64,000 nucleotides of DNA from Desulfuromonas sp. GTDB lineage: Bacteria; Desulfobacterota; Desulfuromonadia; Desulfuromonadales; Geopsychrobacteraceae. Made by a program: the position numbers and the translations under genes. The notes below the pieces were generated by a model, which worked only from the letters and a program-made list of their open reading frames with translations, was not told the origin of the DNA and made no database searches. Location: NCBI GenBank assembly GCA_002869695.1, contig PKUD01000090.1, positions 1-64,000 of the forward strand, read 5' to 3'. Every line of letters starts with the position of its first letter. The stretch's first letter is position 1. Below are positions 12,068-19,615 of the stretch, piece by piece.

Positions 12068-13159
12068 CTAGTCCCCCCGGGCAAACTGCTGCGGGGTCGG
12101 CATGTAGATCTTTTCTTCGTTGTAGACTTCTTCGCCATCATCAGTGGTGGCGCTGACCGACAGAACCAGTCGGTTGGGAGTCGGTCAGCCATCCGGTATC
12201 GAGTGACCCGATTTATTGGTCATCGACACCTTAACAACGGCTTTAGGCGTGTAGAGACTGCCGTCCCGCCAGTTGGACCCGAACGCCTCGACGTCGAAAG
12301 CTACAGCCGCCTGGGCCATCCCTTCATCCCGGTAGCTGAGGATATTATGCCCAAGGCCGCTCTTTTCCATGTGGCATTCCTGGCAGGTTTCCTGGCCGCC
12401 TTCGGCCTTGTAGGCCCACAGGTAGCTGCCGTAGGCGGTGGCACACTGGGTCGGATTGTCCAGCTCCAGGTTGGGGCCGAGACCGTGGCACTGGCCGCAG
12501 AGGATCGAAGCGCTCATGATCGGACTTTCCTTCATGACCGGAAAATCATCCGCCGGGTGCTCACCGTCCATGGAGCCGTAAACCACGCCGTCCTGGGGGT
12601 AGCCGTCGGTCCATTTGTGGGTGATAGCATTGCGGTTGTGGCAGATCAGGCAGTTGATATTGAGGCTCAGAAGTTTCTCTTCCTCCAGCGCGCGGGTTTC
12701 CGCATCACCGCCGCGGACCGCGTCGTACCAGCTGTTGATACTGGTGACAATCTCTTTAGCGACATCGTCGGTGGCGTCAGCCAGCTGCGGCAGGTGGCAC
12801 TTGGTGCAGCCCTGCAGATGTTCAACGGTCACATCATCGGGAGATTCCACCCCCGAGAAGGCCCAGGACATCATGCCGTTCTTGATCGCTGTCTTGAAGG
12901 TTGCAGCAGTCCGGCCAGTGCCGAACAGAGGTTTGGAGTGAGGGGAGTTGGCCCACTCGTCATGAGTGTCTTCGTGACACTCGATACAGGAACTGGAATC
13001 GTACATGGCGACCAGCTCGGCGATCGTTGTTGCCTTGCCTCGCTTGGCGGAGATCTGGCCATCCTTGCCGACACCTGCGGCACTTGCGCTGGTCGCAGCC
13101 AGCAACACCGCCGCCATGAGGTACAGGGCTTTCGCCCAGGTGAACTTCAATTTATTCAT
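12068..13159 (-). CDS. pentaheme c-type cytochrome, selenoprotein (in-frame UGA)
   Basis: The conventional frame stops at TGA (12187-12185) after GHSIPDG. Reading it as selenocysteine (residue 325) gives PTPNRLVLSVSATT and a further 38 codons before a TAG at 12070. A signal peptide (residues 1-28) and five heme sites are present: CIECH 58, CTKCH 118, CLICH 170, CGQCH 221, CQECH 259. The 3' part lies in a beta-rich domain where related cytochromes, from memory, have Cys in the GHxxPDGCP motif. A SECIS-like hairpin follows the UGA. The gene is last in the operon with the four-domain rhodanese lipoprotein and porin, the position of the five-heme ext-type cytochromes. Selenocysteine near a heme network could contact a substrate or a cluster partner. 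Confidence 0.8.
12156..12174 (-). promoter_or_regulatory. putative bacterial SECIS hairpin of the pentaheme cytochrome gene
   Basis: A perfect six-pair stem ACCGAC/GTCGGT begins 11 nt after the UGA and encloses the loop UGGUUCU, with G at loop positions 2-3, close to the known bacterial SECIS pattern. A competing longer stem (CTGACCGAC with GTCGGTCAG) would include the UGA itself. Confidence 0.6.
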
Positions 13160-13241: not shown

Positions 13242-13481
13242 CTAGCAGCCTTGCAGCATGTCGTTCCCTGCAGCCGGTGCAGCGTCCTTCTTCTTGGCCT
13301 TCTTTTTCACTTCCAGCTCAACCTTATCTCCGACTGAAAGCTTATCGGCCTTTCCTTCCTTCAGCTCAATCGTGACTTTGTTGCCGTCAATGTCGGTCAC
13401 TTTACCCTTCATCTCGGCGGCAAAAGCGACGCCGGTCGAGACCAGAGCAACAGCAACCGTCAGTACCAATAGTTTTTTCAT
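13242..13481 (-). CDS. small secreted Lys-rich protein with C-terminal Cys
   Basis: 79 residues: a signal peptide (MKKLLVLTVAVALVSTGVAFA), then a compact beta-type domain of about 35 residues (MKGKVTDIDGNKVTIELKEG...LSVGDKVELEV), a basic stretch KKKAKKKDAAPA and the tail NDMLQGC. The single Cys is the last residue. A KOW/OB-like small barrel is a fair guess at the fold. The rhodanese of the same operon also ends in Gly-Cys, so a carrier role for a sulfur or selenium group at an exposed C-terminal Cys is possible but speculative. AAGG-type ribosome binding site; about 50 bp from the porin gene. Confidence 0.8.
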   Translation of the reverse strand: MKKLLVLTVAVALVSTGVAFAAEMKGKVTDIDGNKVTIELKEGKADKLSVGDKVELEVKKKAKKKDAAPAAGNDMLQGC

Positions 13482-13535: not shown

Positions 13536-14657
13536 TTAAAAAACGACCTGCATTTGAGCGATGACCTTCGAGAAGTCCTCTGTGTCGACGTCCTCCTTGT
13601 CGTAATCGGTATCGCTGTATTCGACGGTCAGTTTGAGATTCTGCCCGTTGATATAGTAGTTGAAACCTGCTGCCATGAAATCCAACTCCTGAGCAGCAAT
13701 CCCGTTCAACTCCGCAAAGGACCAGTTCTCGGAACGGACAAACAGCTGCAGCGGCAGATCCGCCAGAAGGTAGCCAACTTTGGCATAAGATCCATTCTTC
13801 TCGCCATTGATCCCGGAGGTGTCGACAGCCCCCTGCTGGTAAGCGTCGTCCATGTCGTAATCGACATAGGCAGCCGACGCCGTGAAGGTGCCGAGCTCCT
13901 CAGTTGGATACTCGACGAAGATATCAGCGGTCCAGGCATTGAGATCGACGGTATCAGTCCCGGCGAGGGCGACATCCTGCTCCATCTGGTATGCGGCGCC
14001 CAGAGTGACGATCTTTTTCTGTCCCATGTAGGTCCCCCGGTAACCGTACCCTTTTTCCGGATCGAGCAGGGTCAGGTGCGCACGGACACTGTAGCGAACG
14101 TTTGACTCCAGGTCGGCGGCTCCGGTACGACCGTTCATGACATCGGCCCGCAGCTGGAACTTGTTGTCAAACATGTTGCCCCAGACCGCAACACCCTTGT
14201 CGCGAGTGGAAACGAACGGGGAACGGATGAACAGAGAGCGGTCGAGGGTCAGCGGCTTTTCGCATGCCTCAAGGTTTTCACGGGTAAAGCTGTACTTGAA
14301 CTTACCAACCCAGATATTGAGATCCTTGTTCGGCTTGAAACGCAGGACCGCATCGAGCATCTGGAACCTTGAAGCATCGCTGTCGGTGCTTTCGTTGTAC
14401 TCGGTCTGCACATAGAGCCCGAAGTTGGGGCCATAAGCTCCCATCAGGGCCAGACGGTTGCGACGGAAGTTGAACTCCTGAGTTTTCTCCTCGGTGTCAT
14501 CAACGGTCAGCTGGAATTGACCTTTGTAATCGAGCTTGAGCATGCCCTGCTCTTCAGGTCCGAATTTCCAGGTCGGGCCGGCAAAAGCACTGCCTGCCAG
14601 CAGGGTAAGGGTCAACAGAAGACCCACGAAGATACTTTTTTTATTGCCAATCAGCAT
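13536..14657 (-). CDS. outer-membrane beta-barrel porin (ExtI-like)
   Basis: 373 residues from the ATG at 14657 (AAGGAG nine bases upstream), with a signal peptide ending near GSAFAGPTW. The rest alternates short beta strands and charged turns and ends in VVF, the C-terminal Phe typical of outer-membrane barrels. Phosphate-selective porin O/P-like features are visible (FNFRRNRLALMGAYG; DAVLRFKPNKDLNIWVGKFK). In Geobacter, ExtI is a porin encoded beside the rhodanese-like lipoprotein ExtH and pentaheme cytochromes, and has been linked to selenite and tellurite handling. The same gene set here makes an ExtI-like role likely. Homology is inferred from context and architecture. Confidence 0.8.
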   Translation of the reverse strand: MLIGNKKSIFVGLLLTLTLLAGSAFAGPTWKFGPEEQGMLKLDYKGQFQLTVDDTEEKTQEFNFRRNRLALMGAYGPNFGLYVQTEYNESTDSDASRFQMLDAVLRFKPNKDLNIWVGKFKYSFTRENLEACEKPLTLDRSLFIRSPFVSTRDKGVAVWGNMFDNKFQLRADVMNGRTGAADLESNVRYSVRAHLTLLDPEKGYGYRGTYMGQKKIVTLGAAYQMEQDVALAGTDTVDLNAWTADIFVEYPTEELGTFTASAAYVDYDMDDAYQQGAVDTSGINGEKNGSYAKVGYLLADLPLQLFVRSENWSFAELNGIAAQELDFMAAGFNYYINGQNLKLTVEYSDTDYDKEDVDTEDFSKVIAQMQVVF

Positions 14658-14726
14658 AGATTGAACTCCTTTATTCAGGTCAGGCTCTCCCGTCAAGCAG
14701 ACGGGAGAGCGATCATTCTCAAGACA

Positions 14727-17189
14727 TTAACAGCCGACGATAGCGTCGCCGCCATTAGCGGTCGGCGGTGTGACAGGTGCGCTTCCACCATCCGTCTCTG
14801 CTTTGTAATCAGCGTCAGCGCCTTCCACCTGATTGGCAGCTTCATCGCTCGTGGACAGGTCCAGGAGTTCCACATCCGGATTGAGCGACTCAATGGAGTT
14901 CTCACGCAGTTCATCCTTGTTGTAGTTGATAATGCTCATGTAGGTATCGCTGTCGACAGCCCAGGCGGAGAAGGTGCCCAGGTTTCCACCCTTGTCTGCG
15001 TTGTCGGACATCATGCCCCACTGACTCCAGGACCCGTCATAGATCATCGCCGGCAAATCGAGGATGGCATCCATGATGAAGAAACCGGTCGATGCAACAT
15101 AACCGCTGGTGCAGTAGGTGATTGCAGGAGCGGCCGCATTGAATGCCGTCGTATCGATACCATTGGCAAGCATTTCAGCCTGAATCGTTGCAGCATCTTT
15201 AAAGGTGCCGTCAGCTTCGAAGGCGCCTTTGAAGCCATAGAAGGAACCGTTGTTCAGGCGCCCTTCAAACACGACATTCGTACCAGGCTCGTTCAGGCCA
15301 GGAGTGGAGCCGGCGGCAACCTTATCGCCACGAAAGTCGATCGCAATGCCACGATCGTCCCGTGCAGCATCCATCACCTCGGACAGGGTGGCACGCATAT
15401 CAACCTGGGCACCAGCCAGATCCATAACCGTCAGAGCGTTCGCGCCCGCTTCAGGTTGCGAATCGCTGGTCAGCATGCCGTAGGCGGCATTGTAGCCATC
15501 AAGAACCTTGATCCGCTCTTTGGGGAAACCCCAGTAACGCAGATTGACGTATACCCGACTCGGGTAATAGTTTGCCGCAGAGGTGGTAATCACAACTGTG
15601 GTGTTTGCATCGATGCCATGATTTGCCAGCAGGGCATCCATCTTCTCGCCGGTCAGAATCATGTTCTTGGTCTGCACAACGCCATCCAGACGAGTCATCC
15701 CGTTTTCGGTAGCGACATCCAACCAACGGGCACCGGGGATGTGAGCTTCCAGGTAGCTGCCCTTAGAAGAGGCATCCAGAATAACGACCCGCTCACCTTC
15801 GGTGGCGTTGACCAGACCTGCGTCCATCCAGCCTTGCAGAGTATCTGCATCGATCAGGACACCGTCGGTTTGGGTGGCGGACGGAGCAACAACCAGACTG
15901 CTTGCATCAGCACTTGCAGCAAGGTCAGCGACTTCCATCTGACTGCTCACAACATCGGAATCATCCGCTGCATTGTCACCAGTGAAAGGCTCAGCCTGAG
16001 CCGCAGCGTCAACCACGAGAGTCTCTACAGCCAGAGGCTTCTCAACCAGGTGGTTGATGTTGTAGCGATAACCTTCGTCAGCAGCCAGATACTGGTCGGA
16101 GGACCAGACGGAACCGGCGGGGATTTCGCCCAGAGCAGCACCATTGTCGGAATACTGACCGAACTGACTCCAGGACCCATCATAGAGGCGAACCGGGGCA
16201 CCGAGGATCGCATCCGCAGCAAAGAACAGAGGGGTCGCGGAGTAACCGGAGAGACAATAAACCGTGGTGGTCTTGTCTTTGCTCCAGCCTTTGGCAGCGA
16301 ACAGGGCCTCGATCTCTTCCTTGGTCTTGAACTTGTTCCCTTCGCCAAACAGGTCGACCCATGCCAGATACTGACCACCCTGAGGATGGCCGTCGTACAC
16401 TGTCAGGTCGACTTTGCAAGTGACATAACCGGGGCTGGAAGATTCACCCGAGTACCATTTCGGGCCACGGGCATCGAGGATAACGTCGGTTTCAGGATCG
16501 AATGAGCTGACGAAGTCGAGCATCTCGCCAATGGAGAGACGCAGGTCGGCATTGAGTTCGCCTTCAAGATCCTTGACACTGAAGTCGTTGCCGACAGGAA
16601 CCGGCACTTCGCGGGTCATCAGCTCGGGATAAGTTGCGGCAAAAGCGGCATTACCGCCGTTCAGCAACCTGAGGTTCTCCTGGGGGAAGCCCCAGTAGCG
16701 GAACATCCAGTAAGCGCGGGTCGGGAAATACATCGGACCGCTGGTGGTAAAGACGATGACCGTCTCTTCATCGATGCCCAGGCGCTGCAGGACGGCGTCC
16801 ATCTGCTCGCCGGTCGCAACCAGCGGAAACGCAGTCGCAACACCTTCAACACGCCGTGAGGCGAGGTTGGGGTTGTTGACCCGGCAGGCACCAGCGATAC
16901 GCTCGGCATCAGTCTCTGGGTTCATCGTGTAAGAACCGTAATCGAATACGACGACTTTCTGATCGAAGGTTCCGCCCCCGTTCACCAATCCCTGGTCCAT
17001 CCAGCTTTTGAGCGTGGCAGGCTCAATCAGGACATTGGTGGCGGCACCGGTGACCGGAGCGCTGACGGCACTGACCGGCTCATCATAATTGTCTGAACCA
17101 CCGCAACCCCAAAGCATCAGCATCAGGGTCGCTACACAGAGCAACTGCAGAAAAATCTTTAACCTGTTTGTCCTTCTTTCCTGTTTCAT
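14727..17189 (-). CDS. four-domain rhodanese lipoprotein (ExtH-like)
   Basis: 820 residues from the ATG at 17189 (GGGAGGTAAC just upstream). Lipobox LWGC, acylated Cys 29. Two tandem two-domain sulfurtransferase units follow, about residues 50-365 and 440-750. Each has an inactive first domain and a second domain with an active-site loop: Cys312 in CLSGYSAT and Cys693 in CTSGYVAS, followed by the LYDGSW or IYDGSW motif of SseA-type enzymes. An internal duplication joined by an acidic low-complexity linker explains the size. The C-terminus is acidic and ends GGDAIVGC. It is anchored to a membrane facing the periplasm or cell surface, where it could move sulfane sulfur or a selenium intermediate. 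First gene of the porin/pentaheme operon. Confidence 0.88.
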   Translation of the reverse strand: MKQERRTNRLKIFLQLLCVATLMLMLWGCGGSDNYDEPVSAVSAPVTGAATNVLIEPATLKSWMDQGLVNGGGTFDQKVVVFDYGSYTMNPETDAERIAGACRVNNPNLASRRVEGVATAFPLVATGEQMDAVLQRLGIDEETVIVFTTSGPMYFPTRAYWMFRYWGFPQENLRLLNGGNAAFAATYPELMTREVPVPVGNDFSVKDLEGELNADLRLSIGEMLDFVSSFDPETDVILDARGPKWYSGESSSPGYVTCKVDLTVYDGHPQGGQYLAWVDLFGEGNKFKTKEEIEALFAAKGWSKDKTTTVYCLSGYSATPLFFAADAILGAPVRLYDGSWSQFGQYSDNGAALGEIPAGSVWSSDQYLAADEGYRYNINHLVEKPLAVETLVVDAAAQAEPFTGDNAADDSDVVSSQMEVADLAASADASSLVVAPSATQTDGVLIDADTLQGWMDAGLVNATEGERVVILDASSKGSYLEAHIPGARWLDVATENGMTRLDGVVQTKNMILTGEKMDALLANHGIDANTTVVITTSAANYYPSRVYVNLRYWGFPKERIKVLDGYNAAYGMLTSDSQPEAGANALTVMDLAGAQVDMRATLSEVMDAARDDRGIAIDFRGDKVAAGSTPGLNEPGTNVVFEGRLNNGSFYGFKGAFEADGTFKDAATIQAEMLANGIDTTAFNAAAPAITYCTSGYVASTGFFIMDAILDLPAMIYDGSWSQWGMMSDNADKGGNLGTFSAWAVDSDTYMSIINYNKDELRENSIESLNPDVELLDLSTSDEAANQVEGADADYKAETDGGSAPVTPPTANGGDAIVGC

Positions 17190-17428
17190 GTTACCTCCCT
17201 TGAGTAAATTTGGTGAATTCGGGCAGGAACTTATAACTATTTCGTTCTGACCGCTCCACCCCCCTGTGGTTGTGTTGTTCAACTGAATATAGTGCCTACA
17301 AATTTGGACTACCCCTAAATCAAAGCCTGACTCGCCAGAGCAAATCATGGCCACATGTCCCGCCGCTCTCGGTAGAAGCAACCTTTTCTCACGCATAGCT
17401 GGGTGTGGTCCTCCAAACTCCTGACCTG

Positions 17429-18013
17429 TTAAACCCTGATTGTGGCCCAGGCGTTGTTGATCAACTCATCACTGACATCCAGCAGGGAGTCCTTGATGAC
17501 CCCGGAAAGCCGCAGCTCAACGGCCCGGATGATCACCCCGGTGAATGAGACCGCCGACAGAAAGTAGTCACCGGCCTTCAGCTCCCCCTTGGCAATCCCG
17601 TCGGCAACGATCTGTTGTATCCAGCGAAACGGTTCGGAATAACAGATCGGCACCGAATCTGAGATAAATTCATCATGACGGATGGTCAGCATGTACCGCA
17701 TGGTTTCCGGTTCGTTTTCGGCAATTGCAAAAGACAGCTCAGCCACGGCACGCAACTTCCCATAGGTATTTGAGTCCTGGGGGACCCGCGCAAAAAACAG
17801 GTCCTGAAAATGATCCAGGGTTTCTTCATAAAGTTGGCGGGCCAGGTCCTCTTTGTTCGAAAAATAGCTGTAGATCGCCCCCGTACTCACTCCTGAAGCC
17901 TTGACGATGGCCGGTATTGAGACGGCGTAATATCCCTTTTCGACAAATAGCTTCCGAGCGGCCCGAAGAACCATGCCCCTTTTCCCTTGTGGATCGATAA
18001 TTCGCTGTGTCAC
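17429..18013 (-). CDS. TetR-family transcriptional regulator
   Basis: 194 residues from a GTG at 18013 (MTQRIIDPQGK..., matching the start of the paralogue MKQRKIDPQDK at 18945). An ATG 51 bases upstream would place a candidate operator (18025-18042) inside the gene, so the GTG is preferred. The N-terminal helix-turn-helix is SIPAIVKASGVSTGAIYSYFSNKEDL in the usual TetR position. The ligand domain shares IRHDEF and PICYSEPF with the paralogue. It lies 240 bp upstream of the rhodanese operon in the same orientation and probably represses it or the DsrE-like gene in response to an unknown ligand. Confidence 0.88.
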   Translation of the reverse strand: MTQRIIDPQGKRGMVLRAARKLFVEKGYYAVSIPAIVKASGVSTGAIYSYFSNKEDLARQLYEETLDHFQDLFFARVPQDSNTYGKLRAVAELSFAIAENEPETMRYMLTIRHDEFISDSVPICYSEPFRWIQQIVADGIAKGELKAGDYFLSAVSFTGVIIRAVELRLSGVIKDSLLDVSDELINNAWATIRV

Positions 18014-18024
18014 ATTTTCACCAT

Positions 18025-18042
18025 AGATAGAATGTTCTTTCT
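18025..18042. promoter_or_regulatory. putative TetR operator at the regulator's own start
   Basis: AGATAGAATGTTCTTTCT matches the perfect palindrome at 19598-19615 at 16 of 18 positions. It sits 12 bp upstream of the proposed GTG start, fitting autoregulation. Confidence 0.55.
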
Positions 18043-18211
18043 GTAAATCAAAAGCAATGAACATGCCATGGGCACTCGGAAAAGAGAATATAATGCTGTT
18101 ATTCTCTCCTGGAACTAACCATCATTTCTCTAATTTACAAGGAGTTACGAATTTACCACATCCGTAAATAAATATCTCTTTAAGAAAAAAGCTTCGCGTT
18201 AATCTTTTACT

Positions 18212-18229
18212 AGAACGACCTTTCTTTCT
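18212..18229. promoter_or_regulatory. second, weaker TetR operator-like site
   Basis: AGAACGACCTTTCTTTCT matches the palindrome at 19598-19615 at 15 of 18 positions. It is about 200 bp upstream of the first TetR gene, between it and the terminator of the second. 18043-18300 is otherwise AT-rich and empty. Confidence 0.4.
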
Positions 18230-18302
18230 ATGTTCTGGGTAATTTCACCCCCTTGTTGGTCATTTCACCCTATCCCTTTGCTTGAAGGCTCAACATGGCA
18301 AC

Positions 18303-18330
18303 AAAAAAGGCCGGGCATTTCTGCCCGGCC
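18303..18330 (-). terminator. intrinsic terminator of the second TetR gene
   Basis: On the minus strand a nine-pair stem GGCCGGGCA/TGCCCGGCC is followed by six T, 25 bases after the stop codon at 18355. It makes the two TetR genes separate transcription units. Confidence 0.88.
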
Positions 18331-18354
18331 TGATAAGTTCAAGAACAACTACGA

Positions 18355-18945
18355 TCAACTATCGGCCTTTATCGCATTCCAGGCCGCCGTAATCACCTCT
18401 TCCGATTTTTCCTGCAATGTCTTCTGCAGAACCCCTGTCAACCTGATTTCTATGTTCCTGGTAAGAACCCCGGTGAATGCTGCTGCGGAAATCAACCGAT
18501 CCCCCTTTCGCAGATCACCATTGGCGATCCCCTCAGCAACAGTCTCCTGGACCCAGACAAAGGGTTCAGAATAACAGATCGGCTTATGATCGGTCATAAA
18601 TTCGTCGTGACGAATGAAAAGCATGTACTGCATTAAGACCGGGTTATTCTCTGCAATATCAAGAACCAAATGGGCAAAAGCTCTCAATTTCTGATATGTT
18701 GTCGAAGTCCCCGCCAGCCGGGATACCAACATGTCGTTGAATTCTGACAGGGTCCGATCATGAATGTAGCGGGCCAGGGTTTCCTTGTTCGAAAAATGGT
18801 GATAAATGGCACCGGTACTCACCCCGGAAACCTTGACAATGTCCGGTATCGACACATTGTGGAAGCCTTTTTCTACAAACAACCCCCGCGCCACCTCAAT
18901 GACCCTCTCCATTTTATCCTGGGGATCTATCTTGCGCTGTTTCAT
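18355..18945 (-). CDS. TetR-family transcriptional regulator (paralogue)
   Basis: 196 residues. The helix-turn-helix SIPDIVKVSGVSTGAIYHHFSNKETL is nearly identical to that of the neighbouring TetR, and the ligand-binding part shares IRHDEF and PICYSEPFxW, so the pair comes from a duplication and may read the same operator. Divergence in the remaining C-terminal half suggests different ligands or loss of one function. It is a single-gene unit with its own terminator, downstream of the DsrE-like gene and in the same direction. Confidence 0.9.
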   Translation of the reverse strand: MKQRKIDPQDKMERVIEVARGLFVEKGFHNVSIPDIVKVSGVSTGAIYHHFSNKETLARYIHDRTLSEFNDMLVSRLAGTSTTYQKLRAFAHLVLDIAENNPVLMQYMLFIRHDEFMTDHKPICYSEPFVWVQETVAEGIANGDLRKGDRLISAAAFTGVLTRNIEIRLTGVLQKTLQEKSEEVITAAWNAIKADS

Positions 18946-19050
18946 ATCTTTCCTGCATCAAATGGATAACCCCTCGCCTGATTCGACATCCTATCACATC
19001 ACTTTCTGCGCTGCCAGACCGTACAATAGCGGCACAAAGCTGTTGACGTC

Positions 19051-19557
19051 TTATTGAATGAGAATATAGCTGTAGCCACTCGACTGATATCCGATTGCGG
19101 AAATAAAAGTATTGCCAACCACTTTAATCTCCGGAAGGATCGAATCGTTGGACGTCCCCATGAGTGTCGTGGCAACGTTACAGGCTTCAAATTTCACCCT
19201 TTTCTCCGCGAGACCTGAAATCAGTCCCTTTACTGCATCCGATGCCTTCTTGGTCACCAACATAACAGCCGATCCACGAAAGACAACTACAATTTCAGGC
19301 ACAATCGCCTGCGCCCGCAAACTATCGTGGGTCTGCCCGATCACGTCAAGGTAGAGAGCCAGTTTACCCATAGACGCTTCAAATGTTTCCGGAGTAACTC
19401 CGATATTGACATCAAAGAAGGCACGGCCCGGCTTATTAAACCCGGCAAGCGCGTCATGGTCATTCGGCACTGCTGAGGCCGAACCACTTGTCGCCAACAG
19501 ACAAAGAACCAGTTGGAGGGTAACAAAGACGGAAACACAACAGCTGATCTTATGCAT
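19051..19557 (-). CDS. periplasmic DsrE-family protein
   Basis: 168 residues from the ATG at 19557 (GGAG nine bases upstream); a TTG 12 bases earlier overlaps that site and is rejected. Signal peptide, residues 1-29 (ending GSASAVP). The mature part has the DsrE/F-like alpha-beta fold: FDVNIG near the start, PEIVVVFRGSAVMLVTK in the middle, RVKFEACNVATTL with the conserved Cys, and GYSYILIQ at the end. DsrE-type proteins carry sulfur on a Cys during persulfide relay. Its 18-bp palindromic promoter site is shared with the TetR gene next door, which ties it to the rhodanese/porin regulon. Confidence 0.78.
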   Translation of the reverse strand: MHKISCCVSVFVTLQLVLCLLATSGSASAVPNDHDALAGFNKPGRAFFDVNIGVTPETFEASMGKLALYLDVIGQTHDSLRAQAIVPEIVVVFRGSAVMLVTKKASDAVKGLISGLAEKRVKFEACNVATTLMGTSNDSILPEIKVVGNTFISAIGYQSSGYSYILIQ

Positions 19558-19597
19558 CGATTTCTCCAAGTCACAGGAAAGATAGTTGCTACAAAAA

Positions 19598-19615
19598 AGA
19601 AAGAACGTTCTTTCT
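19598..19615. promoter_or_regulatory. perfect 18-bp palindrome, candidate TetR operator
   Basis: AGAAAGAACGTTCTTTCT is a perfect inverted repeat about 40 bp upstream of the DsrE-like start. Length and symmetry suit a TetR dimer. Near-copies lie at 18025-18042 and 18212-18229 beside the two TetR genes. Confidence 0.7.

Follow-up and report, generated by a model that had tools for sequence, protein, structure and literature searches.

The palindrome AGAANGAAYRTTCNTTCT is very probably the operator of a subfamily of TetR-type regulators that includes both TetR proteins encoded in the window, that is, in the whole 64,000-nucleotide stretch of Desulfuromonas sp. DNA that was analyzed. From comparison of sequences, these two proteins, TetR1 and TetR2, most likely repress two transcription units, dsrE-tetR2 and tetR1-extHIJKL, and are autoregulated; we infer binding, repression, and cotranscription of the ext genes from the arrangement of sites and genes described below.

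Operator sites and gene order

The genes dsrE, tetR2, tetR1, extH, extI, extJ, and extKL follow one another in this order, all on the minus strand (Table 1). An earlier note on this DNA had recognized a DsrE-like gene and two TetR genes, and these identities were confirmed by matches to PF02635 and PF00440, with the TetR_N helix-turn-helix of the two regulators scoring 64.6 and 58.7 bits against a cut-off of 24. The ATG of dsrE is located behind a GGAG sequence, with a TTG at position 19569 as a longer alternative start; the encoded protein is probably exported and has an invariant cysteine in an F/L-E-x-C stretch. A strong intrinsic terminator splits dsrE-tetR2 from the tetR1 unit. The GTG start proposed earlier for tetR1 is supported by the ortholog in the congeneric genome G047, where a Shine-Dalgarno-like GGAG precedes an equivalent GTG, and as the longest open reading frame (ORF) of this ortholog starts one codon earlier, the operator falls outside the gene.

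Table 1. Genes, operators, and terminator of the proposed regulon (positions in the window)
Feature	Position	Strand	Sequence	Description
Operator 1	19598..19615		AGAAAGAACGTTCTTTCT	Perfect palindrome, ~40 bp upstream of dsrE
dsrE-like gene	19051..19557	-		PF02635, 34 bits (cut-off 22.7); ATG start
tetR2	18355..18945	-		Second gene behind dsrE; PF00440, E 4.7e-16
Intrinsic terminator	18308..18331	-		10-pair stem and T run; closes dsrE-tetR2, precedes tetR1 operators
Operator 2	18212..18229		AGAACGACCTTTCTTTCT	198 bp upstream of tetR1; no mismatch in either half-site
Operator 3	18025..18042		AGATAGAATGTTCTTTCT	End 11 bp upstream of tetR1 GTG
tetR1	17429..18013	-		GTG start; PF00440, E 6.8e-18
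extH	14727..17189	-		Rhodanese-like lipoprotein; NF040901, 517.7 bits (cut-off 200)
extI	13536..14696	-		Outer-membrane porin; NF040900, 558.8 bits (cut-off 150)
extJ	13242..13481	-		NF040942, 79.1 bits (cut-off 52.5)
extKL	12068..13159	-		Multiheme cytochrome; NF040886, 442 bits (cut-off 250)

The three palindromes claimed by the earlier note, beginning at 18025, 18212, and 19598, were found at these positions with two, three, and no mismatches, respectively. The site at 18212 is better than its 15 of 18 matches imply, since its AGAANGA-N4-TCNTTCT half-sites are intact and the deviation is confined to the center. Their placement relative to the genes stood for the site at 19598, upstream of dsrE, and was amended for the other two, both of which lie upstream of tetR1, with that at 18212 also lying downstream of tetR2. 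Operator 1 precedes dsrE-tetR2 and operators 2 and 3 precede tetR1; thus, each repressor gene belongs to an operator-bearing unit.

Shuffling gave an expectation of 0.05 palindromes in the window against the three present, and no shuffle reached three. A pattern search of the whole genome (3.29 Mb in 219 contigs) allowing up to three mismatches identified four palindromes, three of them in the window, and the reversed control pattern had no match in the same genome. The random genome-wide occurrence that the earlier note had named as evidence against its claim was therefore not seen, there being one extra match only. This match (C3:2282) was dismissed as an operator because it falls within an unrelated ORF, at its 3' end.

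In G047, operator 1 also has a counterpart upstream of dsrE, operator 2 is identical at all 18 positions, and operator 3 matches at 17 of 18 in the same position. The spacing between operators 2 and 3 is 187 bp in both genomes, and the two sites are conserved islands within DNA that has otherwise diverged. Paired sites are 187, 187, and 188 bp apart in three genomes (in L052, one of the two is weaker) and 99 to 127 or 245 bp apart elsewhere; the recurrence of the former spacing led us to consider DNA looping between paired sites. A sigma-70 scan found two promoters, with 2.1 expected from shuffles, so there was no excess, and a TTGACA with a weak -10 adjoining operator 1 is only suggestive as a promoter.

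Distribution of the operator across the order

Using a threshold of E ≤1e-20, homologs of the window TetRs were identified in 44 of the 136 genomes of the order that made up the comparison set, and the general form of the operator was derived from the neighborhoods of such homologs. With at most one mismatch, this operator occurs 58 times across the order, compared with 6 times for the reversed pattern. Sites were present in 29 of the 44 TetR-positive genomes but in 12 of the 92 TetR-negative ones (Fisher p 8.5e-10, a descriptive value, as the genomes are related and independence is overstated), and at the same stringency 18 were found in 64 kb near TetR genes versus 4 in 540 kb. Upstream regions (-450 to +60 of the gene), taken from loci not selected for the motif, contained an operator with up to two mismatches at 14 of 27 DsrE, 15 of 36 ExtH, and 12 of 51 TetR genes and at none of 36 ExtI genes. 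The reversed control gave zero for all four genes, and background windows from the same loci yielded 10 sites in 4,245 (0 in 674 for the AT-rich background). This phylogenetic footprinting lends strong support to the earlier proposal that a shared operator ties the TetR pair to dsrE. The further proposal of a regulon next to the rhodanese/porin operon was supported as to the regulon and understated its extent; as the operator stands directly upstream of extH in relatives, the operon most likely belongs to the targets instead of being a mere neighbor.

In family f7 (L183-L186, L190, and L191), the TetR gene is beside extH and the site is at a distant dsrE, while in G039 a site precedes extH on a contig other than that carrying the TetR gene (L143). 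Because site-bearing dsrE genes are distant from TetR in some genomes, the regulon would act in trans. In four genomes, a site is followed by a gene for a PhsA-like reductase, either immediately or at a distance of up to ~1 kb (L052, L065, L129, and L134), a link to be taken as a lead only, as two of the four loci were motif-selected. Approximately one-third of the TetR-positive genomes carry no strict operator. Near-identical sites are found beside different genes in families f17, f19, and f20, in one of these cases (L124) beside a TetR gene whose product lacks the cysteine described below and a gene of ~1,055 amino acids (aa), a probable RND pump judging by size and neighbor alone; hence, the motif by itself is not diagnostic of the subfamily. 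At L124 (positions 4731 and 5355) and L125 (5017 and 5660), the near-identical palindromes form a pair, AGAATGAATGTTCATTCT, next to a TetR gene of another kind and probable RND efflux genes. Separately, a one-mismatch site was seen at L128 (position 4930, genome G027), ~180 bp upstream of the cysteine synthase gene cysK.

The TetR pair and its conserved cysteine

The two window TetRs form a paralogous pair, as had been noted, though they are not sisters: they share 56% identity, and G047 contains a separate ortholog (78%) for each of them. A tree of TetR sequences resolved into two clades, one of 9 DsrE-linked members, extending beyond the order, and one of 48 mostly ext-linked members (support for the split, 100/100). 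Both window TetRs fall into the latter, meaning that in this genus an ext-type TetR is found beside dsrE, and for both a palindromic operator is present near their own gene. It is doubtful, though worth weighing, that the two have diverged such that only one recognizes the operators, the other having different binding sites or modulating its partner through heterodimers. Their 56% identity and separate orthologs would fit such a division, as would the tails of their recognition helices, which read IYHHF and IYSYF; however, the helix-turn-helix cores are otherwise near-identical, and both genes lie in operator-bearing units.

A cysteine in a P-[I/L/V/M]-C context of the ligand domain is present in 56 of 57 TetRs spanning both clades, unlike most residues of this domain, which vary. 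The strict pattern gave 55 sequences, to which L194 (PPVCSARPF) was added; L145 is the exception, and the L123 homolog was excluded because a stop codon interrupts its matched stretch. In TetR1 and TetR2 the cysteine of PICYSEPF is the only one in the protein (Cys124 in TetR2). An AlphaFold model (pLDDT of 84 overall and 63 to 66 around the cysteine) comprises nine helices in the all-helical TetR fold, and nearly all of the top PDB matches listed for it are TetR-family regulators. The cysteine lies at 123-125 in the model, between helices 102-110 and 127-141 (helices 6 and 7), and in TetR proteins generally the helix 6-7 region forms part of the wall of the ligand pocket or gates it.

We tentatively propose a thiol-reactive sulfur or selenium species as the inducer, given the conserved cysteine and the nature of the targets (rhodanese, DsrE, and in places a PhsA-like reductase); a polysulfide, persulfide, or selenite-thiol product would react with the cysteine near residue 124. 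In a broader and equally tentative form of this idea, the subfamily might sense reactive sulfur or selenium through a single cysteine and control the ext conduit, DsrE, and some PhsA-like reductases, as a counterpart of CstR and SqrR. Cysteine switches operate in the persulfide-sensing repressors CstR (CsoR family), SqrR/BigR (ArsR family), and MarR, and the window TetRs have a candidate one; the sulfurtransferase context of CstR is likewise shared. CstR and SqrR use a cysteine pair (PMC9774590), two reactive residues on a CsoR or ArsR fold, whereas the window TetRs have a TetR fold with one cysteine each. According to excerpts of a 2024 MarR review (PMC11211675), Escherichia coli MarR works via one cysteine per subunit. 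Neither these excerpts nor the 2022 review of reactive-sulfur sensing (PMC9774590) names a TetR-family sensor, and if persulfide sensing by the cysteine is real, TetR would be added to the small number of protein families with this known ability.

An organic hydrophobic ligand is a somewhat less likely inducer, for example acyl-CoA as in FadR, with the cysteine having a structural role and the sulfur/selenium control arising via physiology. The site of Bacillus FadR, in which a pair of GAATGA-like half-sites spans 18 bp, may have a similar dyad layout. Among the best NCBIfam relatives of the window TetRs are Bacillus FadR and ScbR-type autoregulator receptors, both far below cut-off (for the FadR equivalog NF053878, 52.7 and 41 bits against 200), and the modeled fold is similar to those of many TetRs that bind ligands, FadR among them (3whb; TM 0.78). 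Nevertheless, FadR targets fatty-acid degradation, whereas the targets here are sulfur/selenium genes; no fatty-acid genes were present in the annotated recurrent neighborhoods, which instead contain rhodanese, DsrE, and, in a few genomes, PhsA-like genes, and the near-universal retention of the cysteine in a variable domain also speaks against such a ligand.

Proposed control of the ext cluster

NCBIfam searches identify the rhodanese/porin operon as extHIJKL, the cluster that serves Desulfuromonadia in selenite/tellurite reduction and as an electron conduit, with ExtH, ExtI, ExtJ, and ExtKL all scoring above curated cut-offs, in order and on the same strand. Translation of extKL continues past an in-frame UGA, a selenocysteine codon, at codon 325 (12185-12187), and a TGA is equally placed in relatives. 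In the proposed circuit, TetR dimers on the 19598 site would block dsrE-tetR2, and dimers on the 18212 and 18025 sites would block tetR1-extHIJKL; each repressor would hold down its own production, and the two together would gate the DsrE-like sulfur carrier (probably periplasmic) and the selenite/tellurite outer-membrane conduit. The inducer would free the TetRs, after which autoregulation would restore repression.

In this genome, no operator within four mismatches is present in the gap between tetR1 and extH, and control of ext would therefore need read-through from tetR1 across ~240 bp or another promoter. The empty gap fits a narrower regulon of dsrE-tetR2 and tetR1, with extHIJKL expressed from its own promoter within 17189-17429 and otherwise controlled, e.g., by Fur, as does a weak terminator-like hairpin at 17347-17328; Fur control of ExtH/ExtKL has been described in Geobacter sulfurreducens (cited in PMC5877670). 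We consider this narrower regulon rather improbable, as tetR1 and extH are co-oriented, the intervening hairpin has only 3 G-C pairs, and relatives have the operator directly before extH, with the layout in G047 the same as in the window. That the palindromes arose by chance or are remnants of ancestral sites, with no protein binding them, is extremely improbable, for although two of the three are imperfect, the window, order-wide, upstream, and background statistics and the conservation in G047 all stand against it.

Two published observations count against the operator regulon: ExtI was constitutively expressed in G. sulfurreducens under the conditions tested (PMC5877670), and the regulator usual at ext clusters is of the LysR type, which, according to the Fig. 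9 legend of PMC6148476 (2018), is replaced in some extHIJKL clusters by TetR-family regulators. The latter clusters combine ext with TetR as the window does; that legend describes no operator, dsrE member, or sensing residue, whereas the window has three operators and a dsrE unit in addition to its pair of TetRs. Searches of the open-access literature found no report of the AGAANGAAYRTTCNTTCT operator, the regulon, or the TetR cysteine, and nothing linking TetR to DsrE and selenite in Geobacter or to polysulfide in Desulfuromonas, which is weak evidence of absence. Thus, TetR beside ext clusters was already known, while the operator, regulon, and cysteine are apparently new, no report of them having been found. 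Control of extHIJKL, a conduit that serves the reduction of selenite, tellurite, and metals, is little understood, and the operator, two repressors, and candidate sensing residue are testable; the tie to DsrE and PhsA-like genes suggests sulfur chemistry, and not selenium alone, as the natural context of the conduit.

Several features of the ext genes themselves were also recorded. ExtH is 820 aa long, approximately twice the 430 aa of the family model, and contains two ExtH-like stretches; comparable long forms were found at L039, L059, L123, and L214. An additional in-frame TAG (12068-12070), which the G047 ortholog lacks, follows the UGA of extKL and reflects either genuine truncation of the gene or an error in the assembly. 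Operator-like sites near the start of extKL were identified at L061 (13812), L064 (13524), and L066 (6741), and in two families the selenoprotein gene may thus be controlled separately. Tandem extH-extI copies are present in one genus, at L049 (10183-10296 and 15153-15275), L047, and L051, each copy with its own operator pair 113 to 127 bp apart, and the operator region seems to have been duplicated together with the genes.
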